A stretch of 64,000 nucleotides of DNA, from assembly GCA_902728285.1 (NCBI GenBank), contig CACVBU010000463.1:620001-684000 (forward strand). The letters run 5' to 3'. Each line of letters starts with the position of its first letter. The first letter of the stretch is position 1. The position numbers and the translations under genes were made by a program. Under the pieces are notes generated by a model. That model was not told the origin of the DNA. It saw nothing but the letters and a program-made list of their open reading frames with translations, and searched no databases. This DNA is from Clytia hemisphaerica (taxonomy: Eukaryota > Cnidaria > Hydrozoa > Leptothecata > Clytiidae). This document shows, in pieces, positions 6,116 through 61,526 of the stretch.

Positions 6116-9100
6116 TTAATCAGTGTTACTTCTATTCTCTCCAACCCTGCTGTCGTTTCGGTCAACATTAAGTTTCCTTGCAACAAAGAAATATTCCATA
6201 ATATTGATGCAGAGACCAATAGCAACTGTAAATCCAACAATCACCAACAGCCCTGAAAAATAAGTCCAATGAAACTGCTCGACTGGTGTGTAGTCATGAC
6301 AATAATTAAGAAACCACTTTTTCTTCAGGTAACTTTCTCCATCAACTGCATCTTGCAGATCGAGTAGGGTATCTGATATCATTTTACCAAATGTGTAATT
6401 TTTACGGAATGCAAAACTTAGACCATGTTTTCCAATGTATGATTCGGGTACCAGTTCCACTTTGGTATCACATCCACTCATTGTGGCAAGGTCCTGATTG
6501 ATTACTGGTAAAGAGCTCGTATCTGTTATCATCGCTTGGATTGTCCTGAAATTGCAAAAAGGTAGATATGAACGATACCGGAATGAAATGAACACGTGAT
6601 TAGGTTATTACAAGTTAGTTGACGGTTTGCTACCCGTGGATAGTATTTAAATTTTACGTCTATATACCCCCGTCTCAAAGAGCCGATGTAGGACCACTCC
6701 CACCGGAAACTTTGGTCAAAATATCGTCCCTAGTTGAAAATTATACTTCAATTTTTGTTCCAATTGACAATAACCAAATAAACAAATCTTAAAGAGTGTA
6801 ATATTTAATTTTTCCATTCTCACTAAATTCTTTGATTTGAAAACAATGGTATTGGAATATCAATCCCCGTCGAGTTTCACTCCGTTATTCTTATTCCCAC
6901 CGGCTGAAGGGTATACTGGGTCTGTGAGAAGGGGAAGTTCATCTCGTGTTGATGGTCTAGATAAGCTTTTGTAGGTAAGTGAGATCTATACAGAGAACAG
7001 GCTAGCTATAAGCCATATAGATAGATAGATTTGAGCCGAATGCATTGGGGATGGGTCCTACCCAGGAAGGAGTAGGAATCACGGCACTGACAAACACTAA
7101 GATTTGACAGACGTGAGCCTGCTAAGCCATGGTGTATACCATGACACTCGAACGACACTGGGAGAGCGATGCTCACGCGAGACCGAACCTTATGAGTGTC
7201 ACGACACGTCACAATGTCTGTCTAATCTACCCACACTCTTGAATCAGAGTAATGGTACCCAATTTCCCTCAAATGACATAGGTTGACCCGGGTGAAGGTA
7301 TATTCACTAGCTAAGTGAATCGTAGAGACACGGTGGGTATCGAACTCGGACCTCCAGATACCGTAAACTTATCATATAAAACAAATAGAGGAAAATCTTT
7401 ATTCAGTAAATGTCAACTTCGACGAAACCTTACCCGTTTAACATTTTCTCAACACCTTCCATTTCACTTTTGACAAAGTATTTAGACATAAATGTATACA
7501 TTCTTCTAAAGCTTGCATCGGGGTGATACTTGAAAAAGGTTTCTATCGCATATCCTTGACCACCGACCATGGTAAAAATATAGTCTTCTGTAGGGTTTTG
7601 GAACTAAAAGAAGATTAAAAAGAGGATTAGTAGATATTGAGAGATTCTTTCCCATATCAGAAAAATCATTTAAGTAGAAAAAAGTAAGCCCTACAAGCGA
7701 CCGTAGTACAGTGGTAGAGCATCCGGCTACAATTCGCAAGGTTGTGGGTTCAACCCCCAGCCGGGTCATACCAAAGATTCCCAAAATGGTACTTGATGCC
7801 TCTCTGCTTGATGCTCAGCAACTAAGAGAAGGATCAAGGGTAAGTGGAGAAATCCAGGGAGAAAGAGTGGCGCCCTCCCCTACCTTCGGGTAGATAGCTA
7901 TCGAAAGAGGAGCCTTCGGGTCGCCTCCGACTGCGGTCGCAGACTTACTTACTAAGCCCTACATAACGAATTAAATGGCTAAATTGTGTCGGAAAAATTA
8001 AAAAAGTTCAAAACTAGAATCGCTAACTATCCAGTAATCGCTAATTATCCAGTAGCGTAGCCAAGAGGGTCGCAAAATTTGTGTAGGAGAGCAGATTTTT
8101 ATGACACTCTAATTTTCTATTCATGTTATTAAAAGATAATTACAATGTCATAAAAATCTGCTCTCCTACACAAATTTTGCGCCCCTCTTCGCTACGCTAC
8201 TGTTATCTGATCGTCTTTTTTTTTTGAGTTTGTTTGGAAATCTTTTTCCTGTCAATATCTTTCATCCAACATCAATTGAATCACCCAAGTGAAATCATGT
8301 CTTAATGCATGATTTTTACTTGGTAGTATAAATAAAAAATAAAGATGTTTAAGCCCCGAGTGCTAACTCTTTGATTTAATTTTACCTTCGTCTGATTCGT
8401 AATAAAGAAACTACAGTAACTCTGAAGAAGATGAGCATTATTGAACAAAGAATAATTTGATTACCTTTTCATCGTAAAATCCTTTAAAATTTTCGATCAC
8501 TACATGTCCAATAGAGTTCGCAGTGATTCTGGCAGTATAGATGGACATAATGATGGTCATTGCAGATGCATACCCAAGAGCAACAAGACGTCCTGACCAC
8601 ATTCGAGGATTCATACCGCCCATATCTCTTTGAAACATCAAACCAAAAACGTAAGCCATGATCTCAGGGAAAAATATTGTAGGTTTACGTCTCATATTTG
8701 CTGCACTTTTCTCAATTACAGATATGATGAATAATGTCAGCCCAGTTGTTACTAATAATGCTATTTCTAATGAAATGCTTAAGGGTTTGAGAAATTGCCA
8801 GTTTGGGAATTCTTTATTGTATTTGTCAACTCTGACAATGCCAAATGCTGACTCAATGAAATGATGAGAGAAATCAATCACTTCTGCTCGTTTCCTTAAA
8901 GCAGTAACAATATTTATGATGACGTCAGCTTTATTGTACGCAGCTTCTCCGATCATACCATTCCAGGTCCCATTCTCCTCAACCCCCCATTTACCATCTT
9001 CAGCCAAATATAAAGTATAATCGAAATTTAATCTATCTCGAATTTTCTCAAACATTTCTATATTGTAGCCGGTACAACAACCTTTCCGCCATTTTGTTGT

Positions 9101-11375: not shown

Positions 11376-12045
11376 CTTTGCTCAGACTATTCATAATAAA
11401 TGAATAACCAAAAATATTGACAAAAAATAATGAATTTCAGAAAAGTTCTTCTTTCGAAAAAAAAATTATTATTTCAAAATGGGTAATTTCTATAAAATAG
11501 CGTGAAAATTAAGTTTCCATTGAGACTGTAATAGTTGTAACAGCGCTGTATTAACTACATAAATAAGAAACTGATAAAAAACTATATTTTCTGCTAGTGT
11601 TAAAAAAATCATTCTCAAAAAATAATATTTTCAATCTGTAAGAAATTTTTTCTGAAACTATCATATGTAGTATAGTATGGAGACCAAGCCTAAGGTTCCA
11701 TACATCAGTACGCATTACTCTCAGTACGTTGGAGATATGGCGGATTTCATCAAATCTAAACGTGGATAGCAGAAATATATGGTCTCAAATGAGTTATACT
11801 CCAAATGGGCCTTACAAATTCACGCCTTTCACTAATATTAGGTTTTTTTGCGTTTTGGGCTCAAATAATTTACGTAACCGTGACTTTGAGAAAGATGTTA
11901 GCTCTTTTTATCTACGATGAGTCACTTTGATTCTCTGAGTACTTTATGACAGAAATAGAATTTCGAGTTGGATGGATTTTCAGTTTTGAAAATATTAAAT
12001 GTAAGAAATATGAATAAAAGATAATCAAAAGTAATCTACAGTTTG
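11376..12045. other. Intergenic between iGluR copy 1 and the Vps62-like gene
   Basis: Both neighbours are on the minus strand, so this stretch holds the upstream region of the iGluR and the 3' region of the Vps62-like gene. I see no clear promoter motif, coding exon or repeat terminus here. Confidence 0.4.
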
Positions 12046-13291
12046 TTAAATACTCAATCGTATTCCATTACCAAGAATACATTCACCAGAGACAGCTTCA
12101 TAAAATTCACAACCACGTTTTAAATTTCCCCATCTTCCTTTGTAATTAGCAAATGAAAAATCCCCAGTGTATTTTCGTTTCACTTGGGTGATTTGAAGAT
12201 TTTCCCATGTTTTCCATTCTTCACCATCGCTTGTTATATCAGAAAGCTCGTTATTGCCGAATAAACGGAAGTACACAACTTCACCGGCAGCTGAACGGAA
12301 ACCATGCGAGCCACGTGTTTTATATGCAATCGGGTGTGTACCGTGGAATTGAATCTTTTGTCCGGTTTGACGATTTACAAAGTCTTTACCATTGAAAAAA
12401 TAGACGGCCGGAATACCGTGGGAGATCAGATTGATAGCTGCTGGGATACGTCCAGTAGGATCGAAAAACAGATCCATATACTCCCAATCGCTGACGTGGT
12501 GTCCGAATTCTTTGTAATAACCTTCACATTTGGTTTCACGTGGACAGAAGCATTTACCTTGAATCAACTCGCATGGACAGTGGTCCCTTAAGATTCGTCC
12601 AATACAAACAGGTTTTCCACGATTATATGGAGAAAATACTGAATACCTGATTCGTAATCTTGTTGGATTGGTTTGATCGATAAAAACATAAAGAGGAACA
12701 TCTGATAAAGATTGTCCAAAGAAAAACTTCAAATCCCAGGTGCTTGGTGTTGGTATCTCCTCTTTGGTCTGTAGATAACAATTTTCGTCACATTGTGGAA
12801 GGTTACAAGAATCGAGTTGAGTTTTGATGATCTTTCCATCTCCAGACACAAGATTGACATTTTTGAGGAAAAAATCAACTGATGAGGGTTTCCATAATTC
12901 ACATTTATCCAACCTGATAAGTGGTGCCCATTTTCGCGCTAATGCTTCAAATTCTGAAAAGGAAGGGAATATTCGTGAAAAAGTAGGAAAGAAGGATTTT
13001 TACCTGATCATAACAAACAGAGATATGTCAATATTTTATCCACAACACCTCACAAACAAGTTTTATTTATGCTGCTATGTTTTTCCTACTTTTATCTACA
13101 TCCTCTGTATTCTAGGAATCGATTAGAGATTTCTCTCAAAAAACTGTATAATAGTACTTTTTGAATGTTAACTAGCTTTAGTCGGCAATTCGAATGAAAA
13201 AAGCCAAATCATTTTACTTACCACTTGCACGCCTGTTTCCCGCGTTTACAGAAGCAGAAAACCTGAGAATCATAAAGACAATTGTAAACAT
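12046..13291 (-). CDS. Secreted Vps62-domain (DUF946-like) protein
   Basis: Two exons, 13291-13222 and 12953-12046, join in phase 1 to give 326 codons including stop. The donor is GTGGTAAGT and the acceptor lies in a TTCCCTTCCTTTTCAG tract. Exon 1 encodes a short hydrophobic start (MFTIVFMILRFSASVNA) that looks like a signal peptide. The rest is one domain resembling the Vps62/DUF946 family: FEALARKWAPLIRL near the start, GHHVSDWEYMDLFF in the middle, then GTHPIAYKTRGSHGF. There are many Cys residues, including a CPCELIQGKCFCPRETKC cluster, consistent with disulfides outside the cell. Family members occur in fungi, plants and some animals, and the biochemical role is not settled. The name refers to a yeast sorting gene and should not be taken as function here. 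Confidence 0.85.
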
Positions 13292-14300
13292 CCTTCCTTG
13301 TTGTGCTGTAGTAAAACCACAAAATGTTCTTTGCACCGCAGCAAGTTTTTTAAGAATGATTTGCTACTAATTTATGGAGGACTTTTATTTTAATCAGGAG
13401 GGAAGAAAATTGCTGAATTCATTTCCTCTCGAATAACCTGTAAACAACATGTAATTAAGTTGCTGATTAAGTTGCTGATTACATTATTATTTTCTATAAA
13501 AGGATTACTAATATCAGAAACCTGGTCTAGCATCCAAGATATGCTCGAGCTCAATGGCCGGTCGGGAACTAGGTGTTATTCATCTCAAACTAAAACTTTT
13601 TGAAAAAATCGAAATTCATAGGAAAAATTCCCACCATAAGGGGGCCACTTGACTGCCTATTTTCTGTGAAAAAAGATGTGATTATTTTTGTCGTTCTATA
13701 GATGAGGATTTGAGTTTGACAAGCAGGAATATTTCAATATCCTGTTTTAATTCCCTTTTAATTGCATTGTTACATAATGAAACATTATCTGCTCATTACC
13801 AACCTGTTATTGACAATTATCAACAAAGTTTTTTATCTTGATTGTATTTGTTTTTCATTGATGCATATACGCACTGTAAAATTAGTTGCAAACCAAAACT
13901 TTTGAGCTGGATCCCACTACATTAGTGACAAAACTTAACATATTACAACTTGATGTTGCTGTTCCTCTTCACAAGCTTCATCGAGAACGAATTCTCTTCT
14001 TTTCATCATGCTCTGAGTCGATGTTTTCATACCATCATACTTACTGCTTGTTAATACACTTTTTTTATAAGAACAATTTAACTCAATTTCAAGGAATTTA
14101 GGGGTCAAAGGTAGTAAAAATTGGGTACAACGCCTAAAATACATCAAATAACCTTATAAATAAGCACAGGATAAGAGCAATTTGAGGCTCAAAGTGCCAA
14201 AAAAGTAAAAACAGCCGAGCCCAAGCAAAATTTTATTGTTTTTTATAAAAAAGTGCATCTTGAAACTGAATTTTACAGACCCTTAATGAGTTAATGAGAA
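13292..14300. other. Intergenic, nothing recognised
   Basis: No supported gene or repeat terminus was found. Short open frames on both strands around 13886-14147 overlap one another and have no recognisable features. Confidence 0.4.
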
Positions 14301-14309
14301 TCATAGGAA

Positions 14310-14546
14310 CATTTTCATTTGTTTCATCATCGATCTCGAATTGTTTCTTCGTCCACATCATCATTTGTTCCTTCGTCGTAATCATAATTTGTTTCTTCGT
14401 TTATATCTTTATGTGTTTCTTCCTTGATATTACCAATTGTTTCTTCGCTAATTTTTTCATTTGTTTCATCGTCCATATCATTTGTTTCATCGTCCACATC
14501 ATTTGTTTCTTCGTTGTAATCATCATTTGTTTCTTCGTCGATCTAG
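14310..14546 (-). repeat. Minisatellite of ~24-27 bp units, open on the minus strand as an acidic repeat
   Basis: About nine degenerate copies of a unit around ATTTGTTTCTTCGTC. Read on the minus strand they form one open frame rich in Glu, Asp, Thr and Asn (repeating DEETND-type motif). It is bounded by a TAG just upstream and a TGA at the end, with no start codon. The open frame could be a fragment of a coding repeat or a by-product of a unit length divisible by three. Confidence 0.7.
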
Positions 14547-14836
14547 AATTGTTTTCAGCTGGTCTTGAGAATTTTTCACACTAAGCAAGTGATCTTTTCA
14601 TCCACTCACTGTATTCAAGTCGTTGTCACCTTTCTCTTATCTCTATGTCAAAATATAAGAGCTTTTTGCAAAAATCACAAGGGCACTAAGAGTTGGATAA
14701 TATCGAGTATGACTTGACCAAGAAGCAACCTTTTAGACTGAACTTTTGCAAAAAAAATTACTCTCAGAGAAACACTAATTGAAAGATTCTGAAACATTTT
14801 CAATAAATAACCGAGCCTTACCTCCCGCACATATCT

Positions 14837-15059
14837 CAGTGCCGTAGGAAGCAATTTGATATTAGGGGGCATAAGTTCAGTGGAAAATTTTGAAGTCTAG
14901 AGCTCTAAATTGGCTAAAAACACACAAAGAAAACTAAAATGATTCGAACAAAGGCAAAATTAAAAGGTAAAATACTCCATTTTATGAAAAAATCACTCTT
15001 AAAAATTATTAGGGGGGGGCTAAGCACCCCCTAGCCCCCCCCCGGCAGCTACGGCACTG
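14837..15059. mobile_element. Small inverted-repeat element, CAGTGCCGTAG termini
   Basis: It starts CAGTGCCGTAGG and ends CTACGGCACTG, with a G/C-run hairpin (AGGGGGGGGCTAAGCACCCCCT) just inside the right end. The termini resemble hAT ends. No 8-bp target duplication was found. Confidence 0.6.
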
Positions 15060-39744: not shown

Positions 39745-42700
39745 ATGTTGTCTGAAAGGTTCTTCATAATTTCGGTAGAAATCTTCACAGTACTTATTTG
39801 CCTGGTTATTTCAAATATTTCTACAACGACGGATAACTTGAACTTTTATGTTACGACTGGTAATTCGTCTTCAAATGTTAATTCGGTCTGTCTCTCGGAG
39901 CCTTGGAAATGTAAACTCGATTATCACCTGATCCACAATGGAAACCAGGTAAGCATCAAATTTTAAGATTTAAGATTATAAGAGACCCGAGTAGACCCTT
40001 AAGTGTTGTAAGGGCGCATTGGAAAAATTAGTCGAAAAATTGTCCCCGCGGAAGCTCCATTTCGAAAAATCACAACAGTCATATTCACACAAAAAAGACG
40101 CTAGTTTTTAGTATCCCATCCCATCTTGATTTCTGAGCTTTAATTCATTTAAATAGCTGTTTTTTAAGCACAACTTTATAATTAGAAACTTTAAAATTAG
40201 GAATAAAAAAAAAACCGTCAAAATTTTCAAAATAAATTTAGCATATCTGATTTTGACGCGGCCAAATTTTGTTGGGGTCATACTTAGTGCGACGACGACT
40301 ATATGCCGGAGGACCATATAACTCTATGGTAATTTATAAAGGTAGGAAAAAATTACACCCTGTGGTATCACAGAGACGACTTTATTGCCCAATTGTTCAG
40401 ATTTTTGTTTTGTTTTTATTTAGTTGCTGGCAATTACTAACCAAGATATCCACAAAACATTATTTAATAAATCGACTCATACCAACACGAAAAGTTTCTT
40501 CGTTACCTATGGTGTATGTCATCATATTCGTGGCTTTTACATCATGAAGCTTTCTGGCTTCCTTGATATTTATTGCTCACCCCTATCCATAGAACCTTTC
40601 ATTACCAATGATATTATCAGCCATTTTAGCCACCTAGAAGATCTTCATATTCTCTTACATCCAGACTTGCTCACTGTTTTCTTGGATATAATGGATCAAG
40701 AAATTACTTTAAGAAATTTCTTTTTCTACATTGTGGCAATATCAGAGAAAGAAATGGAAACTTTAAAAATGCAATTTCCTCATTTGATGTTGGAGAGATC
40801 TGGTACTCGTGCAGCGGCTAATATGCTGAGTGATTTCATCGCAAGCGTGGAACAGAATCAAAGGTTCACAACTAAAAAGTAAGAAATCGAAAGATTATTT
40901 TCTCAGAATTGTTTAACTGTTTTTGCGGTTGAATTAACAGTAAAAAGAGATCCAAAAGAACCAATTGGTTACGCTCCTCCTCGAACAGAATTTTAGTCTC
41001 GCTTTAAAGAAGAAATTTTGGCGGGAGCTTAATTTGGCAGACAACGCGGGAAAGAATTAAATTGGGAGGAAACTTTATTTGGTGGATTGTAACCAAATTT
41101 TTTCCTTTAAGGTATTTCGAACGTCTCCGCTAACTGGTGTCTAAGCGTGTCAACCAGTTGTAAACTTACATTATTTTATTTATACCGAAACCTTTTTGCC
41201 CCACAGATGCGTTTGTTGCTTTACAGTAGCGAACTTGCTCGCCTGAAAAATATTCATGTCGTTGATCTTCCGATTATGAGCGGGCCGCCGCGGTTAAAAA
41301 ATGTGCACTTTTTATTATTATTATATCTCTTTTGTTTGCTACTGGTACCGATTTCCTAGCTATGTAAGGGTGACAGAGAGGGTAGTTTTCCTAGCTATCC
41401 ACGACGTTTGAAATTTGACTTATGACTTGCTCTGCTGGCTTCCATCAGTTCACTACTGTTCGTGAACAAACAGAAAAAGGTAAATATTCAAATATCTATG
41501 AAAATATCCCAAAAAATAACCAAGAGCCGTCTTCAGAAGGAATTTCTATGAAAATTAGAGAAATTCTAGTTGTTATCAGCGATCCAGTTTTCCTCAGAAA
41601 ATCTCCAATTGGTTTTATATCAAATTTACAGACCAGAATAAACTCGCGACAGAGACTTTTTAGAAATATGTGTTCTCATCTTCTAGGAGACCACATGCTA
41701 CGACTTTCAGTTTGCAAGGAAATACATTTTGCTAAGATATACTTGTAAGATCTGTATTTGCTTTTTTCACAAAAGATGTGTTCTGAAAGTTTACAGGGTT
41801 ATGAGGCAACAATGTTAAATCAATTTTGTCTTAATTATACCCCTTTGTCTATTCTGTATGGCGTGCCATATGTAGTTTTATCATTTTCAGGGAGATGGCA
41901 ATTTTTGCCATTTTATATTAACTTTTTTCGGGATGTTTCAACATCAATATTTTCTCGACATCTTGAAGTCTTTTGTCGTGACTTACTTATTTACTTACTT
42001 ACAAAATAAGGGGATAATATAAAGGGAGTTCCAATATAATATTGTGATACACTGTTTGATAATTTTGAACTTTATTTTGAATTCAGCCAACAGCGGTTAA
42101 ACAGTTCAAACAAACCACACCTTCATTATTATGTAAATATTTGATTTTTTTGGGGGGCATCCAAAGTAACGAGATCACAGGATCAGACTCTTTTTTGAGC
42201 GCGGTATTTCGGGATTCGCATGAAAATAAAAAGGGAATATAGGACTAGAGCTCTATGCCGATACCGGGATTCTACCCTTAAATCTAACGGTAAAATGGTA
42301 ATCAAGCAAATATTTCTCGGGATTTCGATATTTAGACATGTTAACGTTTTGTTCATCACAAAGTTTAGACGTGTAAACGTGGCCATAAAATACCTTAACA
42401 AAAAAACTAAAGTGTAGAGAAAACTATAACAAGACGACCTTGAAGTCGAAAATTTTGCCTAGAATTTGAACTGCATGGGAAAAACAAGAAGTAGAGATTG
42501 AGGCTAATGTGAAATCTACTTCACATCGAGCCTCGATGAAACAATTTTACAAGAACAACGAGGCTTAAAATCGCTAAAAAATTAAAGTCTATTCACGATA
42601 AGTGTGCACTCTTTTTTCTTTTACTTATAACTTTTGAAGGAATTCTTCAATCTTTTTAAATTTGGTATCATTGGAAAGATATTTGTGAGTGGAACAATTT

Positions 42701-45700
42701 GAAATAAAAAAAACCTTAAAAAGATCATAAAAATGAAGATGAAAATGAAGAAGAAAAAAATGAAGATCTTGTAGAAAGGTGCTATAACTTTCATTTTCAC
42801 TGGAGAGATTCCTTGATCTTAGGAGATCATCACTGTGAAAAAATTTCATTAAAATATTTATTCAATTAAAGTTTATAATACAAAGTTAAAAGTGATTGAC
42901 CCCAAAAAACAGCAAAAAACTGCAGAAAACAGCGTTTTTAGACGTCAATCAGCTTATAACTTTGTTTGATATCTTTTGACTGAATGATTATTTTTGAGAA
43001 TTTTTTTCACAGTAATGACGTTCGATGATTAAGGATTCACTTCAGTGAAAATGATAGCTATAGCACTTTTCTACAAGATCTTCATTTTTTTCTTCTTCAT
43101 TTTCATCTTCATTTTTATAATCTTTTTAAAGTTTTTTTTATTTCAAATTGTTCCACTCACTAATATCTTTCCAATGATGCCAAATTTATAAAGATTGAAG
43201 AATTCCTTCAAAAGTTATAAGTAAAAGAAAAAAGAGTGCACACTTATCGTGAATAGACTTTAAGACCGATTTAAGAACAATTGTTGTTTAATTTTTAAGA
43301 ACTCTTATAAAGTATATGCTCATAAAAGATAAATATGCTCATATGGCACGTCATCCCTTGTTTATTTTGTAAGAACTAATTACGGAAAGGTATATCACCG
43401 TCTATCCAAGAGTTAAAACAAGACTTAGAGTTAACGGGCATCATGGACAAAAGATGAAAACGTTTCAAGTGTCCTTTTTCAAGTCTCTGTTTTGATTGAG
43501 ACTATGTAGTTTCTTTAATATAACCAAAAGCAGTTTGTTTCCAAAAGGCTAACCTGTGATTATCACGGTACGAAAAAAAAACGGGATAAAATCAAATCAA
43601 GTGAAAATTGAGTTGGAAAGTAAAACTCAAAGAAGAAATTCAAACTGCTAATAATTACGTACTAACCCTAAAATAATATGAAGAAATTCAAATTATTATT
43701 AATTACATAGATACTACCCATAAAATAATATGATAAGAAATTCATATTGACCCAGCCAAAAGATAAAACGTATAGTACACCATTGTACTTCCTTTTTTGT
43801 TTTAGCTTCCATCCCAGGAAAAATTTACTGTATAAACGTTTAAAAAATTATCATTACATCAAAAGTCCACAGATTGTCAAACATCGATTATAATTCAGCA
43901 CTGGAATTTAAGTTAAGTATACGTTTGTTTTTTATACATCTTTCATCCATCAAAAAAATAATACCTTTAATTCGCTTGGAAAAATAATCAGGCTGTTTGT
44001 TCCAAGGTAATCGAACCATTTGTGTATCTGTAATTCAGTTGGTTTACGATATCGATGATGTCCATTGGTGACTGTTTGGTTGATTGTCTGCTCCAGATGT
44101 AAAGGGGTTTAGTGGAGTATTCATATCCAATTCTTGATCTCCCTGTTGCGTTGGGGAAGGCCCTTGACCATTCTTTGGCTTGGTTCCGTCGTCTGGTGTT
44201 ATAGTGAACGGCTTGTAAGACAGTGTTGACTTGATATTTTGTTTGCCAAAGCCAAAAGATGCGATCGACATTTGCCATGTGTAAGAAAAACAAAGGATCG
44301 AAAGCTGCCATTTCTTTTGCACCCAAATCGCCATGGGAACCAGCTACCAACTCTATTTGAAACTCTTTGGATGGCGGGCTATTCCCACCTAAGGTGTGAA
44401 GCATATTAATACTGGCTTGCTCAAGAGAGATCTGACCACCTGTTGCTGACACGATGTTTGAAAATTGATTGTAATTATCAATATCAAGGCATCTTTCGTA
44501 CATCTCTTTAATTGGTATGAGGGGATGGTGCAAATTATTCAGAGAGTGGACGATGTTTTGATTCAAGTAATCTTCTGGGTAACGGAGGAGCAGGTTGAGA
44601 TAATTATTTTGGAGTTGTGAATTGGTGGTATATTTGCTTGGATTTCGAGGATTCATAAGACCAGAGAATGGATATCGGCAGGTAGTGTATCCAGCTGCTT
44701 TTTGTATACTTCTGGTTTGCTTCATTTAATGGGATTGCATTTGGTAAAATATATCCCAAGAGAGGGTTGGGAATAGTGTTTCCAAAATCATCAATCTCAA
44801 CAAAATCGACAGTCAAAAGGCTTGGAAGACCGTCTTTTAACGATTCATCTGATGTTTCATCCCAGTAATGCAATGCTCCCTTGTCCTGATCACCGACTGG
44901 AGTATTGTTGACCAAAGCGTTTTCCAATCGCAAGAGATATGCACGGTACCAGGAGAGGAAAAGAACATTTTCATGCTGGCTGTCTCCTCGCCATACCTTT
45001 TTTGTCTGAGGTGCTGATGTTCTCGGCGATTTAAACGGTTGTCCATTAATTGATGCTATATTCCAATAGGTTTCCGGATCGTCAGGACTAAGATGATTTT
45101 TGATTTTATCAAACGCCTTCAAAAATGCGTATCGGGCTTGGGTATTCTCATCTTTTTCCAATTCTCGGATCGACATTCGATTTCTACAAACATAATTAAA
45201 GTTTAAATACCTACCTTATTGCACGAATATTACTAGGCAAGTATTAAACGGCTAACCTGTGATTATCACGGTACGAAAAAAAAACGGGATAAAATCAAAT
45301 CAAGTGAAAATTGAGTTGGAAAGTAAAACTCAAAGAAGAAATTCAAACTGCTAATAATTACGTACTAACCCTAAAATAATATGAAGAAATTCAAATTATT
45401 ATTAATTACATAGATACTACCCATAAAATAATATGATAAGAAATTCATATTGACCCAGCCAAAAGATAAAACGTATAGTACACCATTGTACTTCCTTTTT
45501 TGTTTTAGCTTCCATCCCAGGAAAAATTTACTGTATAAACGTTTAAAAAATTATCATTACATCAAAAGTCCACAGATTGTCAAACATCGATTATAATTCA
45601 GCACTGGAATTTAAGTTAAGTATACGTTTGTTTTTTATACATCTTTCATCCATCAAAAAAATAATACCTTTAATTCGCTTGGAAAAATAATCAGGCTGTT

Positions 45701-48700
45701 TGTTCCAAGGTAATCGAACCATTTGTGTATCCGTAATTCAGTTGGTTTACGATATCGATGATGTCATTGGTGACTGTTGGTTGATTGTCTGCTCCAGATG
45801 TAAAGGGGTTTAGTGGAGTATTCATATCCAATTCTTGATCTCCCTGTTGCGTTGGGGAAGGCCCTTGACCATTCTTTGGCTTGGTTCCGTCGTCTGGTGT
45901 TATAGTGAACGGCTGTAAGACAGTGTTGACTTGATATTTAGTTTGCCAAAGCCAAAAGATGCGATCGACATTTGCCATGTGTAAGAAAAACAAAGGATCG
46001 AAAGCTGCCATTTCTTTTGCACCCAAATCGCCATGGGAACCAGCTACCAACTCTATTTGAAACTCTTTGGATGGCGGGCTATTCCCACCTAAGGTGTGAA
46101 GCATATTAATACTGGCTTGCTCAAGAGAGATCTGACCACCTGTTGCTGACACGATGTTTGAAAATTGATTGTAATTATCAATATCAAGGCATCTTTCGTA
46201 CATCTCTTTAATTGGTATGAGGGGATGGTGCAAATTATTCAGAGAGTGGACGATGTTTTGATTCAAGTAATCTTCTGGGTAACGGAGGAGCAGGTTGAGA
46301 TAATTATTTTGGAGTTGTGAATTGGTGGTATATTTGCTTGGATTTCGAGGATTCATAAGACCAGAGAATGGATATCGGCAGGTAGTGTATCCAGCTGCTT
46401 TTGTATACTTCTGGTTTGCTTCATTTAATGGGATTGCATTTGGTAAAATATATCCCAAGAGAGGGTTGGGAATAGTGTTTCCAAAATCATCAATCTCAAC
46501 AAAATCGACAGTCAAAAGGCTTGGAAGACCGTCTTTTAACGATTCATCTGATGTTTCATCCCAGTAATGCAATGCTCCCTTGTCCTGATCACCGACTGGA
46601 GTATTGTTGACCAAAGCGTTTTCCAATCGCAAGAGATATGCACGGTACCAGGAGAGGAAAAGAACATTTTCATGCTGGCTGTCTCCTCGCCATACCTTTT
46701 TTGTCTGAGGTGCTGATGTTCTCGGCGATTTAAACGGTTGTCCATTAATTGATGCTATATTCCAATAGGTTTCCGGATCGTCAGGACTAAGATGATTTTT
46801 GATTTTATCAAACGCCTTCAAAAATGCGTATCGGGCTTGGGTATTCTCATCTTTTTCCAATTCTCGGATCGACATTCGATTTCTACAAACATAATTAAAG
46901 TTTAAATACCTACCTTATTGCACGAATATTACTAGGCAAGTATTAAACGGCCTTGAAATTAACACGAGTTTTATTTGCTTAAGTGCTTTGATCATAGTTG
47001 GAAAATTGATTTTAGTATCTGAACATGAAAGTTATGTTTTAGATTCTTTAACACTTTTAACAAAGAATTGCCTTTATAAATTGCTTTTTAATCAAATCCC
47101 TTAAGAGTAATTAAGAACGTAATTGCAAAAATGACGTTATGAACTTTAAAAAGACGTTAATAATATGTTGCATCACCTTCTTTTATGAAAAGTGCTAAGT
47201 TTTAATGGATAATTAACCTTTTTGTTTCGAAGTTTTTTCAAACTGTCCGCAAAGAATTGAACTATTTTAAATTTTGCGGAAAATTTTTCTAAAAAGATGT
47301 GTCAAAAGTTATGACTGTTTTTTTAAGCAAAATCCAGATGAAAAATTCATGAAAATCCACTATTTTGAAGATTTTGAGACAAAGAAGCATTTACAAAAAT
47401 TTTCCGCAAAATTTTTTATTGTTCGGTAAAAGATACACCATCTACTGCGAAAAAATTTTCAAAATGTTTTTTCTTCGCCGAAACTAAGCTCTTCAAAGTT
47501 GAAATACTCTTCCTCGCAAAAGTCTTCATTTTCTTCTTCATCAAATTTTTTCAATGCAATTTTTGAATTTTCAGATTCAGGAATAGTTTGTCTAACAGAA
47601 AATGTATAACATGCCATAGTTTTGTTGGTTACATCAGTCAGAAAACACATTTTAAACACGGCAATTATGAAAAATTCACTATGGTCAGAGCCCTTAATAT
47701 CAAGGACACCACGGTTGGTTTTGATTAAGGTGGTTTTTATTAACACGAAATTTTTCAATTCGTGTTAATAAAATGACTAATAATATTCGTGTAATAAGGT
47801 AGTTTAGAGCTTTCTTTCCTGGACTTGCTTTAATTTTCGGAAATTCCAATGGTCAAGTATTTTGGTAACAAAAAAACATCATAATTATCAAGGCTGTTCT
47901 TCATATAAATATAAAAGGCTATTCCCATTTTTTCGTAGCTCATATTAGTAATCAGACGCACATTGTCCATGCAAGAGTAAGGGAGTGGTCAGAAAGTATC
48001 TACTAGGGAGGGGTGGAGGATTCTATGGGGGGTTCCAAATATTTTTCGAGGGTTTAGGGGGGGGGTTCAATATTTTTTGAGGGTTTAGGGGGGGTTCCAA
48101 TTTTTTTGGGCAACTCAAGGGAAAATGTGGGAAGTCTAATTTCATAGTTTTACGTTTCAAGATTTAAAAAATTTTTCGGCCTCACGGCTGACAACTCATA
48201 ATTAATTTTATTGGATATATGCACATGTCATACTAGCATTATTTGGGCATCATAGCCTTGCCCTTTTGGTTTGTAGCATTGAGTTAGATGAGGGAAGTAG
48301 ATTTGTGGCTTTCACAGCTCATCAGAGTGGTTTGAAAAAGTACTTTTTAGAATGAAATTTGTCAAAACAAAGTGTCTTTTAGCTCAAATGGTGGGTAAAA
48401 ACATCGAAATTTTCTCCCGTCGGTGTAAACCATAGTTGCGCCTCCTTAGACTTTACTAATATCTTTTAAATTACATACACAGAGCTTTGACAGACCCTGG
48501 AAAACCTGAAAAATATAGGTTTACAGGGAAATTTCAAATTCAGAGAATTTTATTTTTTAGACTCCTTTTAACAACAGAATAGCTTGTATTTTAGGGTCTC
48601 GAGTACCTGATCTTCAAAATTTTCTCTCTTCGGGGCCAACCATGGTGGTCCCTCAGGATATCTTGAGTAATTGAGATGCCTCTGTAATGTATGATGAAAA

Positions 48701-54700: not shown

Positions 54701-57700
54701 GTGGAGTTCGCCACCTGCATCCTAACCAAATTGTAAACGTTTTTTAAGATTCTAGTGATAACTAAACTCCTTTATGGACTAGACCTGGTCACACTTACTA
54801 ACCACTACCGTGACTTAATAGGCAGACAAGCAAGATGTGCCTTGAAATCTCTACTTGGCGTTTCGTGATGTCTTTTGGATCAATGAAATCGCTAGAATCT
54901 AACCCTAGTCACGAATACGGTTGTTACTGACCATGTATATCCCTTATCCCACCTCGAGAAAATCATGTAACTAATAATATCCCACCTCCACGTGATGTCG
55001 TTTGACCAATGAAATCGCTAGAATCTTACTGATGCGGGATAATGCTTGTTATTTTTAAACCATAACGTAATGTAAATCACATGGAAGATAATAACACCTC
55101 TGTCTCTGTGCTCAAGTGCGGTTGGAATCTGAAATTCACTGAGGTACAAGATTTGATTTAAAATGTTGGTTGGGGTTGATTTTCACTGGAATCTAAGAAA
55201 AATTTTGACAACTTATTACTTAAGCTAGAGTACCTTTGGTTTACTGCTGGTCAGGATAAAATTTTTGCACTAAATGAGGAGCATGTATGAATTTGATAGA
55301 ATGAATCCGTTCGTACACTGTGACGGATATATGGATAAAGTAATAGTGTTTTCTTGCCAGTATTTGCGCGCAATTGAGAAAGCCTCTAGAATGTAGGTTT
55401 AAAGGAAACACTCCTGTCTCACAACACCGGTGAAATTTCGATTGAAATCTCAATGGGGATAAAAGTTGTTTCAAGGTTAAAAAATCCAGTGGGGATGATT
55501 TTGGAGTGCAATTTCTAAACAATGAATTTCGAATGGGGATATTTTCTCCACCGGGGACGAAATTTTTGCCAAACTTTCCAGTGGGGCTGTGACACAGGGG
55601 TGGAGGAAAGGGAGAAAGGGCACAGAATTGGGATAAAATAGTGACAAAGGAGTGGGAAAATTCTAATTTTCAACCCGCCCTCCCATTTGGCTAAAATCAC
55701 TCCTTTTGTTCTCAAATCTTGATAAGGCAATTATATGATTTATTTTACACACACAGCAATGTCACGGACCCGCAGGGTTAGCCAACTACATAATTTGGAT
55801 TAGATAAAGGCAATATATTGAAGTGGAACATTTTGATAGCAAGCGGAGTGAGCTAAAATCATTTTTAATGGGGCCATTTTTGTTTGGGGCCATTTCTGGG
55901 GCCATTTTTAAGGCCAATACCTCAAAGGAAGAAATTTTGGCGTGAATTTAAATTGGTGGATGGTCAAATAAGTTTTTTCAGTAGGAATTCGCTTTGGCGG
56001 ATAGCAGAACAATTTAAACTTGGCGAGAATTTAATTTGGTGGATGAGGGATATTTTTGGCCAAAAAATGCTATTAAATTGGATAAAACGTGCCTGAAATA
56101 ATACGCTTTTGTGGAATGACTACAATTATTTAAATTTGGCAGGAATTCAATTTAGCAGGTGGGGGGATTGTATTTGGTGGGAACATATATTGGCGGATTT
56201 ATGCCTATTTTCTTACTTATTTAAGGTATCTGTTATTAAGACATGAAAGTTCTAGTAAGTATCAATTTTATACGTTTTTAGGAACAGTCTTCACCAAAGA
56301 AGAACCGTTGACCGTCGAACTAACAGTCTACGTAAACTGGCTTTAAGTAAGCGGAAAAAACGTCTCATTCGAGTTGTTACCACGTGGTTTCCTCCTTATG
56401 TTGAAGAAATGACATCTGCCATATTCCCTAAATGTAGCCCTGGTCATCAATGCGACATACCAGTCCGTGATGATAACAACACCAAGACATTGTCCTGGAG
56501 AAAATCATGTTGCTCAGGGATGTCTGTCGAGATTTTTGAGACTTTGGCAAGGGAATTAGACTTTAAGTATACTTTGTATGCAGTTGAGGATGGAAAGTTT
56601 GGATCTGAAGAAAATGGTACTTGGAATGGTATGGTGGGCGATTTGGTTCGAGATAAAGCTGATATGGCAATTAATGTTCTCAGTATTGTCTCCAAGAGAG
56701 CCACTGTAGTTCATTTCACTAGCCACTACTTGGAGAGCTCTTTTGGGATTTTAAGAATCAAGCAGCCGGTCATTCCGTTTCCAAGTTGGGAATTTCTAAA
56801 GCCTTTGACTGTTGAATTGGAGCTGGTGATTTTATCATGTACTTTGGTGTCAATTCTGTTGATTATGATGTTGGAGAATGTTGGTTACTTAATGAAAGCA
56901 AATCAAAGGTTTTCATTTCGAGAAGTGATGACCTATGTCTTTGGATTAACATTTCAAAGAGACATGGGTGGTACAAATCCTCGAATGTGGTCAGGACGTC
57001 TTGCTGCTCTTGGTTATGCATCTGCAATGACCATCATCATGTCTATCTATACTGCCAGAATCACTGCGAATTCCATCGCTCAAAATGTTAATGATGATTT
57101 CAAAGGCTTCCAAGATGAGAGAGTAAGCAATAATTCATGTATCGTTGAAAATATAATTCCGAGTAGCGATCGGAGCTTGATAAATCAAAAAAGGAAAAAA
57201 AAAATAATTTCCCTTCTTGGAATGCGCCTTCAAATCAAAGTTCATAAAGTCAATAGATGATTGTTTTGTCTTAAAAATACGGAGTTATAGGATGGGCGAT
57301 GCTTCCACCAGTGTGATATCTTCCGAAATTTGAAGCTCAAAGTGTCATAAAAGCACGTGTACAACATGTGTACAGATTTAAAGACACAAAATAATTAAGC
57401 AAAAGATATTTCCCTAAATGACAATAGAACGGTTTCCTTTGAAGGATTAGCTTTGTGTCCATCGCACAGTGCGATAAATATGAAATCTTGTTATATCTAT
57501 ACACTATGCGATAGTGGCTATCGCACATCATCACGAGTTACTATTACCATCACTATTGCAGTGTAGTTCCCATTGCTATTTCTGCGGCTTTCTTATACTA
57601 TGATTATACACACTGTGATAGAACTACGTAACCACTGCTTCTTCCTTTTCTTCTAATCAAAATGAGTACACACTTTTTTTTATAAGAATGGTGTAAATCC

Positions 57701-60700
57701 ATTTGATCTTGGATATTCTTAATTTTTTGTGAAAATCATCCTAGAATATTCTTACAGCATATTCTTAGGTTAAGGTCCTAATTCAGACTAGATTTAACAT
57801 TTAGTACATACGTCTCAAGCATAAGATGGTATTTTTGTGAGCTTACTTGGGGGTAATTGACAATTTATAATTGAAAATGCTCTAAAAATAGCATTCTTAG
57901 CTCGAGTAGCAAAATCCCATGATGGTGATATTCTTAGCATATTCTTAATTTTTTGGCCATTTTCATCATGGACATTCTTATAAAGTGTATTCTTATAAAA
58001 AAAGCGTGTACTTCATCTATATAGTTTAGAAACCCAACATCAAAGTACAAGTTCTCAGTGGTTGGTGGACAAGGTTATTCACAAGAATTGTACTTTGAGA
58101 ACCACAATGATCCAGCCTTCAGGAGAATGCATGAATTTATGAAACCGTATTTTGTTGATGATGATGAAGTGGGTGTTCGAATGTTGATGGAAGGGTATGG
58201 AAATCATTTTAATTTTATACCGGGTCCGCCACAAAAAAGTTTCTCTCTTTAAAACTAATTTTCTTGAAATCTAAAAGTTTTAAAAGAACCATCCCTATTT
58301 CATTGGAAAGAAGAAAGATAAACTTAAATTTTGATGGGTCATTTATTGAACTCGATTCATTAGATCAAAAGTTATGCTCAATTGAATAAAAAAGTTACTT
58401 TCGGAAAATGCTCAAAAACGGTAAAAAATCGACCTATAGAATTAAACATAAGCATGATTTCATGATATATCAGTATTTTCGTTACAGTCATTAAAAATGA
58501 TAATTAGCTGTCTAAATGACCTTTAGTTATTTAAAGGAAGGTTGAATTTCAATGAAAGGAAGAAAATCCGTCGAAAAAGGCCAAATAATCTGGTAAAATT
58601 CCTAAAAATACATCAAATATGGGTTTTGAGGTAGATCCAGCCTTACATAGACTTTATCCAGTCTAGAACAAAAAATTTGAGGAAAATTTCGGTAAAACTA
58701 AATTAAATTGATTTTGATGAAGATTTTAAACCCTTTCGAGCCTTCAGTTTCAAAATTTATGTGTTTTGTTACTGAAAAATGCTCTTAATCATGTAAAGGC
58801 TAATGCAATTGCCAAATTTAAAGTAAAAATTTGATAGGTCGATTTTTACCGTTTTCGAGCACTTTCAGAAAGTAACTTTTTTATTCAATTGAGCATAACT
58901 TTTGATCTAATGAATCGAATTTAATAAATGACCCATCAAAATTTAAGTCTATCTTTCTTCTTTCCAATGATTTAGGAGTGGTTCTTCTAAAACTTTTAGA
59001 TTTCGAGAAAATTAGTCTCAAAGAGAGAAACTTTTTTGTGGCGCACCCGGTATTATACTTTTTCTAATGTATTCCTATCTTTGGAAAGGGTATAAAGGTG
59101 ATAAAAGCGCACAACTGTTGAGGCACCGTACTCGTCCTCAAAAAACAACCTTATATCTAATTACCATCCATAAATTCAAATTTTTTACTACTTTGAAAAA
59201 AAAAACCGGGAAAATTACCCTTAAAGTATCATCTGATAGATAATATTTCCATTTTGCAGTTTGATAACAATATCATATCTATTAAGTTAAAAAGCATTTG
59301 CCTCCACAGATTGTATCTCAAAAAATTCCTCATAGCAACTTGAGGAAGATGGTGAATAACCCAAAATTATTTCTATAGAAGGGCTATTGAGTAAATGAAT
59401 ATGAAGACCTTTACAATTTTTCTCCATGGGATAAAAATTTACAAAAATTTGATACTAATGACCAAATACACCCCAGTCTCCCGGTGGAACTTTCTCCCCC
59501 TATGGGGATAAAAATTTCTATCGAAATCTATTGTTCCCGAGCTTAAAATATCCTGTGGGAATGGTTTAGGACAGCAAATTTTTGAATTGAATTTCGAATA
59601 GGGATGAAATCAAAGTCCATTTCCCAGTGGGGATGAAATTACGAAGATTTGGCCAAATCTCTCAGTGGGGCTGGAGTCTCAGGGGGTCTGTGATACAGGG
59701 ATGTCCTAATGGGTTCTCTAAATTCTATCACCTATAGTTTAAAGATGATTCTACCGTGGTCACTGAGACAGGGACGCATTTCAGAAAACTGATGTCTTTT
59801 TCTGTTTCAGACATAAAATTATTCACATTATTTCAACCGTAGCTGCCAATTGCCGCGCAGGCACTTTTGTCCGTTCTATTCTTTTTTCACATCTAAAGAC
59901 CGTAGAAAAATGTGTAAAAAAAGATTGGATCGAGTATAGGGTGGTAAATTAAATAATAAAGTGGTATGTGCCTAACCGCGAGGGGTAAATTACTCGAAAA
60001 AATCTCGTACACTTCTTAGAAAAATCACAAAAAAATCACAAAAAAAATCAAAAATCACAAAAAAATCACAAAAAAATCAAAAAATCACAAAAAAATCACA
60101 AAAAAAAAAGCACAAAAAAGCAAAAAAAAATCACAAGAAAAATCAAAAAAATCAAAAAAAAAATCACAGAAAAAAATCAAAAATCACAAAAAAAAATCAC
60201 ATAAAAAAAGCAAAAAAATCAAAAAAATCACAGAAAAAAATCAAAAATCAAAAAAGAAAGCAAAAAAAAATCACAGAAAAAATCAAAAAAAAAAGAAAAT
60301 CACAAAAATCAAAAATCACAAAAAAACACAAAAAATCAAAAAATCACAAAAATCACAGCAAAAATCAAAAATCACAAAAAAAAAAAGCACAAAAAAATCA
60401 AAAAATCAAAAACAAAAAAATCACAAAAAAAATACAAAAAACAAAAAATCAAAAAATCAACAAAAAAAACAAAAAAATCAAAAATCACAAAAAATCAAAA
60501 AATCACAAAAAAATCACAAAAAAAAATCAAAAATACAAAAAAAAAAAAAATCAAAAAAAAATCACAAAAAAATCACAAAAAAAAATCAAAAAAAGCAAAA
60601 AAAATCACAAAAAATCAAAAATCACAAAAAAAAAATCACAAAAAAAAAATCAAAAAAATCACAAAAAAATCACAAAAAATCAAAAAATCAAAAATCACAA

Positions 60701-61526
60701 AAAAATCAAAATCACAAAAAGAAAAAATCAAAAAATCACAAAGAAATCACAAAAAAATCAAAAAATCACAAAAAAATCACAAAAAAATCAAAAAATCACA
60801 GAAAAAATCAAAAAATCACAAAAAAATCAAAAATCAAAAATCATTTCGTACGCTTTTTTCGAAGTGATTTACCCCTCGCCTAACCGCGCGACTATGGTCG
60901 AAAAGGTGTATTCACATTTATCATAATTTTGAAACTCGCTAGACCAATATCTTTTCAATCTTCCTTCTAGAAAATTTCAAGCCTATATTACAGAGCTTGG
61001 ATCATTTGAAGCTTACTTCCCACCAATGATGGCAAGAATTGGTTGCAGTCAAGAGATCGAATTTTATCCAAAAAGTGTTGGAAAACACGGCCTTGGTTTT
61101 GCATATCGTAAAGATTTCCCGTTCGGTAAAACAATATCAAATCTCATGGTTAAAATGAGGCAGCATGGAGATTTTGAAGATTTGAAGATTCGATGGTATA
61201 GTTCATCGCCATGTAATGGTATCAAACCGGTGGAGCAATTCAATTGGACCTATTTCTCTGGGATTATGGTCATTGTTGGGGTAATGATGGCTATAGGTAT
61301 ATGCATCAATCTCTTTGAGCATAGCTTTGTTTTCATTAGAAAACATTACTTGAAGCATAAAGAAGAATCGGACCTGAAACATTTTTCTGAAATGAACACG
61401 AATGGTTTGAAGCATCATCAAAATGGTGGAAATGATGAAGGTTTGGTCAAAGCCAACAGAAATTTAAGTTTGTTTTTGGAAGATCTTGAAACAAGAATAG
61501 CTGAGAAAAGAAATCGTCTAATTTAG
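39745..61526 (+). CDS. Ionotropic glutamate receptor, divergent NMDA-like, copy 2
   Basis: Five exons, 39745-39948, 40424-40878, 56282-57122, 58025-58194 and 60971-61526, join in phases 0, 2, 0, 2 (2226 nt, 741 residues). Phases and the 170-nt exon 4 are identical to copy 1. Exon 1 has a signal peptide. Exon 2 encodes a short N-terminal region resembling copy 1 (HPDLLTVFLDIM..YIVAISEKE). S1 has ENGTWNGMVGD and KRATVVHF (binding Arg ~359). M1 is followed by the pore loop FQRDMGGTNPR (Gln at the Q/R/N site ~445) and M3 SIYTARITANSI. S2 has Glu in ITELGS where copy 1 has Asp, and retains the Cys pair. M4 is followed by a longer, charged cytoplasmic tail than copy 1. Intron 2 is 15.4 kb and holds antisense tyrosinase-like genes and a LINE. 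The long intron leaves a small chance that exons 1-2 belong to another transcript. The open frames at 41422-42009 inside it are unexplained. Confidence 0.88.
41422..42009 (+). other. Unexplained open frames in intron 2 of iGluR copy 2
   Basis: Two consecutive plus-strand frames (108 and 83 codons) follow exon 2 by about 540 bp. The first has mixed residues and an internal AAAAAGGTAAAT possible donor. No domain or homology to either iGluR was recognised. It may be an alternative exon, a remnant, or chance. Confidence 0.15.
42585..43260. mobile_element. Foldback element, AAGTCTATTCACGATAAG ends, copy 2
   Basis: TA flanks at 42583-42584 and 43261-43262. It aligns over its whole length with 38808-39484 with scattered differences. 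It is inside intron 2 of iGluR copy 2. Confidence 0.85.
43988..45176 (-). pseudogene. Tyrosinase-like protein, frameshifted copy
   Basis: Same gene as 45691-46875 but with four single-base insertions: near 44703 (TTTTT versus TTTT), near 44212 (CGGCTTG versus CGGCTG), near 44070 and near 44055. The frame breaks after about residue 160, and the rest is spread over two other frames. It is either a freshly dead tandem copy or an assembly error, because all differences that break the frame are of the homopolymer type. Confidence 0.85.
45691..46875 (-). CDS. Tyrosinase-like protein with degenerate copper sites
   Basis: An intact 394-residue frame. The fold signature is clear: QHENVLFLSWYRAYLLRLEN (CuA region, residues 68-86) and AFDPLFFLHMANVDRIFWLW (CuB region, 291-310), with YWNIASINGQPF before CuA. 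In catalytic tyrosinases the six copper ligands are His. Here the HGQPF-type His is Asn44, the WHR His is Tyr77, the first CuB His position appears to be Val277, and the HH pair reads HM (299-300). Only two or three ligands remain (His68, His281, perhaps His299), so oxidase activity is doubtful. No signal peptide is encoded; a TTTGTAG acceptor immediately before the ATG suggests an upstream exon that I could not place. It is nested antisense in intron 2 of iGluR copy 2. Confidence 0.85.
   Translation of the reverse strand: MSIRELEKDENTQARYAFLKAFDKIKNHLSPDDPETYWNIASINGQPFKSPRTSAPQTKKVWRGDSQHENVLFLSWYRAYLLRLENALVNNTPVGDQDKGALHYWDETSDESLKDGLPSLLTVDFVEIDDFGNTIPNPLLGYILPNAIPLNEANQKYTKAAGYTTCRYPFSGLMNPRNPSKYTTNSQLQNNYLNLLLRYPEDYLNQNIVHSLNNLHHPLIPIKEMYERCLDIDNYNQFSNIVSATGGQISLEQASINMLHTLGGNSPPSKEFQIELVAGSHGDLGAKEMAAFDPLFFLHMANVDRIFWLWQTKYQVNTVLQPFTITPDDGTKPKNGQGPSPTQQGDQELDMNTPLNPFTSGADNQPTVTNDIIDIVNQLNYGYTNGSITLEQTA
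47459..50382 (-). CDS. Possible multi-exon gene of unknown function
   Basis: Two adjoining exons, 50382-50228 and 50104-49953, have strong acceptors (CTTTCAG) and donors (GTAAATAC and GTAAGT). They join in phase 1 to give about 100 hydrophilic residues (for example KYNKCDKRRKEVTVKSKM). A following exon could be the 23-nt segment 49253-49231, or a frame ending at the stop near 47459. That frame enters in phase 0 after an AAG acceptor near 47695 and encodes an acidic C-terminus (KKFDEEENEDFCEEEYFNFE). The chain is tentative, the start exon is missing, and no family was recognised. It lies antisense in intron 2 of iGluR copy 2. Confidence 0.3.
47980..49186. mobile_element. 1.2-kb TIR element, AGGGAGTGGTCAGAAAGTAT ends
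   Basis: Perfect terminal inverted repeats of about 28 bp (AGGGAGTGGTCAGAAAGTAT..CTACTAGGG), each followed by G/C runs. The interior has GGGGGGTTCCAATATTTTT-type sub-repeats near the left end and another hairpin element (48847-48979). No transposase frame. Confidence 0.8.
48847..48979. mobile_element. 133-bp foldback MITE nested in the 1.2-kb TIR element
   Basis: Arms TTTAGGAGATC..ACCATTTTGATTGACGTTTA and their complement, with about 35 bp of loop. It lies entirely inside 47980-49186. Confidence 0.8.
49821..49920. mobile_element. 100-bp near-perfect palindrome, CCAGCTGGCACACAACGT ends
   Basis: The two halves, CCAGCTGGCACACAACGTCG and complement, pair over about 40 bp each with a short loop. 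The same termini bound the element at 22401-23527. This appears to be the minimal member of that family. Confidence 0.85.
50888..51125. mobile_element. ACACCCCTGTCTCACAG MITE, copy
   Basis: Left ACACCCCTGTCTCACAGCCC and right GTGACACAGAGGTGT ends. The interior repeats CAGTGGGGATGAAAT-type units. Same family as 54061-54350, 55408-55602 and 59468-59704. Confidence 0.75.
51422..51760. mobile_element. TA-flanked MITE, CACGTTTTTTTTATTAGAAC ends, copy 2
   Basis: Flanked by TA at 51420-51421 and 51761-51762 and in the same orientation as 28382-28743. It directly abuts the 5' side of the LINE remnant. Confidence 0.8.
52185..52362. repeat. Short tandem array, CGGACGTTTCCCCGAC units
   Basis: About ten degenerate 16-20 bp units inside the endonuclease region of the LINE. 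They lie between coding segments that are otherwise recognisable on both sides, so the array was inserted or expanded after the LINE landed, or during decay. Confidence 0.75.
54061..54350. mobile_element. ACACCCCTGTCTC MITE inserted in the LINE, with 6-bp target duplication
   Basis: ACACCCCTGTCTCAG..ACACAGGGGTGT ends are flanked by CAGAAA at 54055-54060 and 54351-54356. Removing the element and one duplicate puts reverse transcriptase motifs B and C in the same frame, which confirms the insertion point. The interior is a series of CAGTGGGGATG-type units. Confidence 0.9.
54726..56281. other. End of intron 2 of iGluR copy 2
   Basis: It holds one ACACCCC-family MITE (55408-55602) and otherwise no recognised feature. 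The TTTTTAG acceptor of exon 3 closes it. Confidence 0.5.
55408..55602. mobile_element. ACACCCCTGTCTC MITE, shortened copy
   Basis: Left ACACTCCTGTCTCACA and right GACACAGGGGTG ends with the GGGGATGATTTTGGAG interior. It is shorter than the 290-bp copy by loss of an internal unit. Confidence 0.7.
57669..58008. mobile_element. TA-flanked MITE, CACACTTTTTTTATAAGAAT ends, copy 2
   Basis: TA at 57667-57668 and 58009-58010. It ends only 16 bp before exon 4 of iGluR copy 2, so the exon's branch point may lie within the element. Confidence 0.8.
58219..59051. mobile_element. 833-bp foldback element with ACCGGGT ends
   Basis: Left ACCGGGTCCGCCACAAAAAAG and right end CTTTTTTGTGGCGCACCCGGT. Arms extend about 200 bp (for example AAGATAAACTTAAATTTTGA and complement). 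It starts 25 bp after the donor of exon 4 of iGluR copy 2. A diverged relative is at about 27432-28167. Confidence 0.8.
59468..59704. mobile_element. ACACCCC-family MITE, diverged copy
   Basis: Left ACACCCCAGTCTCCCGG and right GTCTGTGATACAGGGATGT ends. Same GGGGATGAAAT interior as the other copies. It lies in intron 4 of iGluR copy 2. Confidence 0.65.
59834..60913. mobile_element. Foldback MITE (CGACCGTAGCCGCC family) split by a microsatellite
   Basis: The left remnant CAACCGTAGCTGCCAATTGCC and the right remnant CGACTATGGTCGAAAAGGTGTA match the ends of 34609-34783. They are now about 1 kb apart, separated by the A-rich array at 60005-60845, which itself sits between inverted GAGGGGTAAATTACTCG and CGAAGTGATTTACCCCTC. 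Confidence 0.65.
60005..60845. repeat. Long irregular (AAAAATCAC)n microsatellite
   Basis: About 840 bp of A-runs punctuated by TC, TCAC and GC, all on one strand, with almost no other sequence. It lies in intron 4 of iGluR copy 2, 125 bp before exon 5. Confidence 0.9.

Follow-up and report, generated by a model that had tools for sequence, protein, structure and literature searches.

Two GluN-like receptor genes with short N-terminal regions and a rewritten M3 motif within an expanded gene family

The 64,000-nucleotide window analyzed here (C325:620001-684000 of a 417-Mb genome in 951 contigs) carries two iGluR genes with a short N-terminal region and an M3 segment unlike that of known NMDA receptors. 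What are these genes? The reading we favor, with a little less than even confidence, is that both look intact and belong to an iGluR family specific to their lineage (28 M3s read), which is closest to GluN subunits, GluN3A first, and which has lost much of the amino-terminal domain and relaxed the M3 motif. For the family as a whole, the best reading is an expanded, GluN3-like, chemoreceptor-like group that may parallel the arthropod IRs. The preliminary description of the window mostly holds: the genes, the pore Gln, the M3 motif and the short N-termini stand, while the proposed loss of an S1 threonine does not.

Both genes comprise five exons with hand-read splice sites, frames that are open throughout, and the identical phase order 0, 2, 0, 2. 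Gene 1 lies on the minus strand and encodes 674 aa. Its first exon (11375-11235) holds the start codon and a weak putative signal peptide, with hydropathy below 1.6 in 15-residue windows, and ends at the phase 0 donor TCG/gtaatt; it is followed by a short N-terminal domain in phases 0/2 without a Pfam match (10609-10179), an exon containing S1, M1, the pore loop FQRDMGG and the M3 SIYTARITANSI (9317-8465), the start of S2 with the ligand loop GGQGYA (7603-7434), and the remaining S2 with Asp at GluN1 D732, M4, a short tail and the stop TAA (6545-6116). Gene 2, on the plus strand, encodes 741 aa in the same arrangement. The exon with its start codon and a strongly hydrophobic putative signal peptide (39745-39948) ends at the phase 0 donor CAG/gtaagc; the short N-terminal domain, also in phases 0/2 and without a Pfam match, follows at 40424-40878, then S1, M1, FQRDMGG and M3 SIYTARITANSI (56282-57122), the start of S2 with the loop GGQGYS (58025-58194), and the remaining S2 with Glu at D732, M4, a cytoplasmic tail and the stop TAG (60971-61526). 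The putative signal peptides were assessed by eye and hydropathy only. The first exons and the exons that open S2 are additions to the earlier reading of this span. Pfam Lig_chan-Glu_bd matches the two spliced proteins at E 2e-20 and 2.1e-23, which is not chance, and Lig_chan is matched in both; the spliced models and these matches together confirm two iGluR genes.

Other features lie around and within the pair. Two tandem tyrosinase gene copies occupy window positions 43500-47500; they sit within the second intron of gene 2 and run antisense to it, with a spacing of ~1.70 kb and a reported 100% identity in four repeat blocks; the copy at 45691-46914 is open, the copy at 43988-45215 is a split reading frame, and the tandem is either a very recent duplication or an assembly artefact. 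A long A-rich tract built of tcacaaaaaaatcaaaaa-type repeats (60020-60880) lies directly 5' of the last exon of gene 2 and produces spurious Lys-rich reading frames. Upstream of gene 1, a 317-aa open frame on the minus strand (12046-12999) adjoins the gene and has a weak Vps62 match (PF06101, E 1.4e-05). A Helitron-like element at 122-2527 contains a PIF1-type helicase frame (Pfam PF05970) and then a frame judged endonuclease-like by eye.

The motif SYTANLAAF in M3 is regarded as essential for iGluR gating. The NMDA-type M3 (SYTANLAAF; STYTANLAAV in GluN3A) is absent from the window pair, and SIYTARITANSI is confirmed in both genes by the spliced models and by alignment. A search of the genome with the S1-M3 exon of gene 1 gave 36 matches from 38 candidates, five of them on contig C325 including both window genes. 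Three more loci, on C694 and on C325 at 458 kb and 463 kb, read S[I/V]YTARITANS. The motif is therefore present in five paralogs on two contigs, which rules out misassembly as its origin, a finding that the preliminary description had named as one that would count against it. Outside these five, the closest M3s are those of L045 (SIYTAMITAN) and L050 (SAYTAKICAS).

How far does the departure extend? SYTANLAAF is kept in none of the 28 related M3s read in the 417-Mb genome, and residue 654 is F in 0/28; the canonical GluN1 of the same genome (L001, with further exons in L051) retains the motif. Residue 650 is N in 10 of the 28 genes, R in five, V in five, L in two, S in two, and M, K, D or H in one each. 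The family pore loops read QRD, QRS or ARD, with QKGD in L040. The 28 M3s consist of 24 distinct stretches, L003, L052 and L054, each identical to another locus over that stretch, and L046, added by hand; the count excludes matches on C207, C355 and C827 near 575 kb as well as several weaker PF00060 matches. The pair thus departs from a motif that had been called almost invariant, but known receptors vary too, the closest solved relative, GluN3A, having STYTANLAAV. Likewise, the M3 Arg is present, but it is less striking than first supposed, given the wide variation at residue 650 among family members and the loss of SYTANLAAF from the family as a whole.

Searches against solved sequences place the family near GluN subunits. 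GluN3A is the best match of spliced gene 2 (residues 283-688, E 2.1e-42), and the best 60 of its 363 matches are all GluN (GluN3A, GluN2 or GluN1), none of them beginning before residue 262. For the S1-M3 exon of gene 1, the best 60 of 371 solved matches are all GluN as well. A tree was built from 19 of the 28 genes, excluding L003, L036, L039, L040 and L024 (partial or near-copy) and the short L052-L055; its scope is five GluN and GluA2 references and does not extend to Epsilon, Phi, Lambda, IR or NMDA-Cnidaria receptors. All 19 family rows fall on one side against rat GluN1, the genome's own GluN1, GluN2B, GluN3A and GluA2 (100/99), and genes 1 and 2 group with L045 and L050 at 99/98. The family joins GluN2B and GluN3A at 93/90, which is not decisive, and GluA2, the sole non-NMDA reference, is placed beside GluN1 (93/90), so that this small tree recovers no NMDA clade. 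We therefore call the family GluN-like on the grounds of its best matches and shared residues, and the tree does not fix its branch.

Which residues are shared? Alignment of genes 1 and 2 to GluN1, GluN2B and GluA2, in GluN1 numbering, bears out the ENGTWNGM stretch, the S1 Arg and the S2 cysteine pair of the preliminary description, together with an S1 Cys-Cys. With GluN3A, GluN2B and GluN1 the pair shares the order S1-M1-pore-M3-S2-M4, the S1 Cys-Cys, R523 and a D732-type acid, and the spacing from the pore site to M3 is gap-free. Likeness to GluN3A extends to an Arg directly after the pore site in an F-x-R arrangement (FGRT, against FQRD in the pair) and to W-[S/T]-G-R after the pore (W-T-G-R against W-S-G-R); the GluN3A-like T-Y-T-A-N-L of M3 occurs in many family members and not in the window pair. 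Differences are equally clear: the pair lacks a full amino-terminal domain, has Gln at the pore site where GluN3A has Gly and GluN1 and GluN2 have Asn, reads SIYTARITAN in place of STYTANLAAV (GluN3A) or SYTANLAAF, and carries Tyr687 with a loop insertion.

In S1, P516 is replaced by I in gene 1 and V in gene 2, T518 is T/S, and R523 is kept. Gene 1 keeps Thr at position 518 and gene 2 has Ser there, so the earlier claim that this threonine is lost is wrong, and the change is confined to the preceding residues. The Gln reported at the Q/R/N site is found in both genes (N616 to Q), where it is followed by Arg and Asp; the Asn typical of NMDA receptors (GluN1, GluN2; Gly in GluN3A) is absent. 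In M3, S646 is I, N650 is R, A652 is T, A653 is kept and F654 is N. In S2, S687 is Y after a two-residue insertion, S688 is A/S, V689 is I/Q and D732 is D/E. Two further NMDA-type features, the S1 Arg (R523) and the S2 acid (D732), are accordingly present as R/R and D/E in genes 1 and 2.

The N-terminal region is short in both genes, with 190 and 219 residues preceding the S1 exon in the spliced models. The NMDA-type two-lobed amino-terminal domain is absent from the pair, and Pfam ANF_receptor gives no match in either spliced protein. The two regions resemble each other, as had been proposed (tblastn E about 1e-4, 24-29% identity). Could a full domain reside in exons that were overlooked? The preliminary description had named this possibility, and it is made unlikely by exon 1 of both genes and by the relatives L037 and L043, each with a single open frame that contains both a signal-like start and the lobe. 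Given complete five-exon frames with putative signal-peptide exons, missed exons probably do not account for the short N-terminus. Across 19 loci, each represented by one gene (for L034, the first of two), a region of one-lobe length always precedes S1.

A profile of 21 N-termini, window pair included, was searched against 177,635 solved sequences. The amino-terminal domains of iGluRs rank first, with a best E of 8e-5 at positions 129-258 of a GluN1 chain, a stretch that we take to be the lower lobe (R2) of the domain; the best 60 of 143 matches are 59 iGluRs and one taste receptor. When the window subclade (four members) is left out, the best E becomes 0.001, and 59 iGluRs stand among the best 60 of 130 matches. 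In single scans one of the 21 N-termini matches Pfam ANF_receptor (E 0.0021). From these profile matches, one amino-terminal lobe seems to have been retained in the family.

The N-terminal exon of the window subclade stands apart. Its comparison with the family lobe by hhalign gave no detectable match (probability 0.7, E 0.085), and the A3 profile search returned four matches, all unrelated. Under the A4 profile, gene 2, gene 1, L050 and L045 scored no better than 263, 102, 374 and 22 of 500 shuffles, and all six left-out family members tested as controls (of 17) outscored all 200 shuffles. The sequence link between this exon and the family lobe failed in all three tests. The structure model of gene 2 exon 2 is of low confidence (pLDDT 52.7); its fold search gave nothing as good as E 0.001, no amino-terminal domain is among the fold matches listed, and we do not count the model as evidence. 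Shared exon place and phase are the sole link. In 9/19 loci the exon 2 frame could be read up to a donor, which is in phase 2 just as it is in genes 1 and 2; a search for the exon-end site located it in 18 of 20 genes (L042 a mis-hit, L040 none), a count that is biased by a pattern demanding a Val codon (GT). Because the N-terminus of the window subclade is unmatched to the family lobe, exon 2 would be either that lobe diverged past recognition or a replacement.

Has this family already been described? Ramos-Vicente et al. 2018 report an expanded cnidarian NMDA repertoire and an NMDA-Cnidaria class of nine proteins, with ligand specificity predictable for two of them (PMC6307864). Compared by its description in the available sections of that paper, this is the nearest described class, and the window family is probably akin to it. 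There is a substantial chance, short of even, that the pair simply belongs to NMDA-Cnidaria, or to a cnidarian NMDA2/3-like group, and represents a known expansion in which only the species is new; the family is NMDA-type (GluN-like), expanded and altered in its ligand residues, as the class is described. The same sections, however, call the iGluR domains well conserved in the unreported groups, assign a weaker M3 motif to Lambda and some Phi proteins, and mention neither M3 rewriting nor a halved amino-terminal domain (PMC6307864). Published cnidarian NMDAs moreover carry an acid four residues past the pore site, whereas in the window pair it lies two past. A search for GFP-family sequences, made for its bearing on the source lineage, gave no match, a negative that does not demonstrate absence. 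In the portions of the open-licence literature consulted, a halved amino-terminal domain was found in no NMDA-type family.

The M2-M3 block bears on how the motif came to be shared. Between genes 1 and 2, DNA identity is 89% over 46 M2-M3 codons, against 52% before the block (S1-M1) and 58% after M3, and 43 of the 46 residues are identical. Silent changes affect 10 of these 43 identical-residue codons, compared with 88 of 179 outside (Fisher P 0.002). Local gene conversion or constraint at the DNA level would explain this low silent divergence. The common TARITANS may thus stem from M2-M3 gene conversion among paralogs and not from repeated selection of Arg, a reading that we regard as plausible without quite favoring it, and which is compatible with our best explanation. 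The step in DNA identity and the deficit of silent changes point toward conversion, but selection at the codon or RNA level would give the same pattern and, as the other three paralogs are represented by M2-M3 stretches alone, conversion is testable on one gene pair.

IRs, which descend from the non-NMDA iGluR branch, are likewise described as having N-termini of only about 200 residues, ligand pockets that have diverged, and expanded gene families (PMC2924276, available sections). The window pair is like arthropod and other protostome IRs in all three respects, its 190 and 219 residues included. The best matches of its family are GluN subunits, unlike those expected of receptors from the non-NMDA side, and this speaks against IR membership; the tree leaves the branch open. 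A bolder version of the preferred reading, possible in our view but on balance unlikely, is that the family would be a second IR-like chemoreceptor family of ~30 genes, built from GluN3-like NMDA receptors and not from the AMPA/kainate side, which dropped one amino-terminal lobe and abandoned SYTANLAAF, with one subclade in which a new small N-terminal domain replaced the remaining lobe and Arg650/Thr652 became fixed.

How might such receptors work? The subunits would assemble into tetrameric cation channels that lack a complete layer of amino-terminal domains, and the assembly and allosteric control that this layer provides would be largely gone. The retained clamp of Arg523 and Asp/Glu732 would still hold an amino acid-like backbone. 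With Tyr687 and the two-residue loop insertion, the side-chain pocket may be either reshaped or filled, which makes a ligand other than plain glutamate or glycine probable. In M3, the basic residue at 650 and Thr652 would probably alter the stability of the gate, most likely raising ligand sensitivity; we are unsure of the direction of the effect on opening itself.

Human variants offer a partial guide. M3 is described in the available sections of PMC10973091 as virtually intolerant to variation in humans, and GluN1 N650K and A652T are among the changes listed in patients. With GluN2A, N650K shifts the glutamate EC50 from 3.5 to 0.46 uM and the glycine EC50 from 1.2 to 0.22 uM, and surface expression is much reduced; A652T differs little from wild type when paired with GluN2A and is flagged as changed with GluN2B; and Asn650 and Ala652 belong to the positions whose variants had a lower open probability in one assay, itself caveated (PMC10973091). 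As N650K lowers the EC50s but also surface expression and, in that assay, open probability, higher sensitivity is the better-supported half of the gating proposal. The surface loss, the lowered open probability and the near-wild-type A652T with GluN2A would argue against a simply loosened gate. That Arg650 acts like Lys650 of human GluN1 is an extrapolation.

By analogy with arthropod IRs, the likely role would be the sensing of external or non-synaptic chemical cues, and we advance a chemosensory function of the family as a proposal. The repurposed chemosensory-like branch suggested in the preliminary description fits the family size, local clusters, short N-termini, rewritten M3 and altered pocket, with function the part that stays proposed. 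Might the subunits instead be non-conducting or regulatory, joining other iGluRs to damp or modulate them and binding no amino acid themselves? A Tyr at the position equivalent to GluA2 653 is predicted to fill the pocket in amphioxus GluE7 (PMC6307864, available sections), gene 1 has Ala at GluN1 Ser688, an Arg adjoins the pore Gln, and human N650K lowers surface expression, all of which lend this alternative some weight. We nonetheless think it improbable, as a functional clamp and pore are suggested by the open frames, the 43/46 identical M2-M3 residues and the kept R523 and D/E732. That the pair represents decaying duplicates or an assembly error, as fast divergence in the rest of the protein and large introns containing repeats and other genes might hint, is very hard to reconcile with frames open over five exons and matching phases in both genes and with an M3 motif common to five paralogs on two contigs.

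Lacking SYTANLAAF in 28/28 M3s beside a canonical GluN1 in the same genome, the family is in effect a mutational scan of the iGluR gate performed by nature, and it also informs how much amino-terminal domain a receptor needs. If the sensory role is true, iGluR-derived chemoreceptors arose more than once.

A second iGluR-type set is present in the same genome. Nine of 30 translated PF00060 loci (L005, L008, L013, L016, L018, L020, L023, L028 and L029) combine an iGluR-type channel with the potassium-channel filter TVGYGD; their places include C75:2092615-2133475, C129:1749389-1754463, C250 and C628, and several of the genes are single open frames of about 440-530 aa. All three loci tested match Pfam Ion_trans_2 and Lig_chan without a match to the iGluR ligand domain. 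We take this set to be reminiscent of GluR0 and of rotifer AvGluR1.
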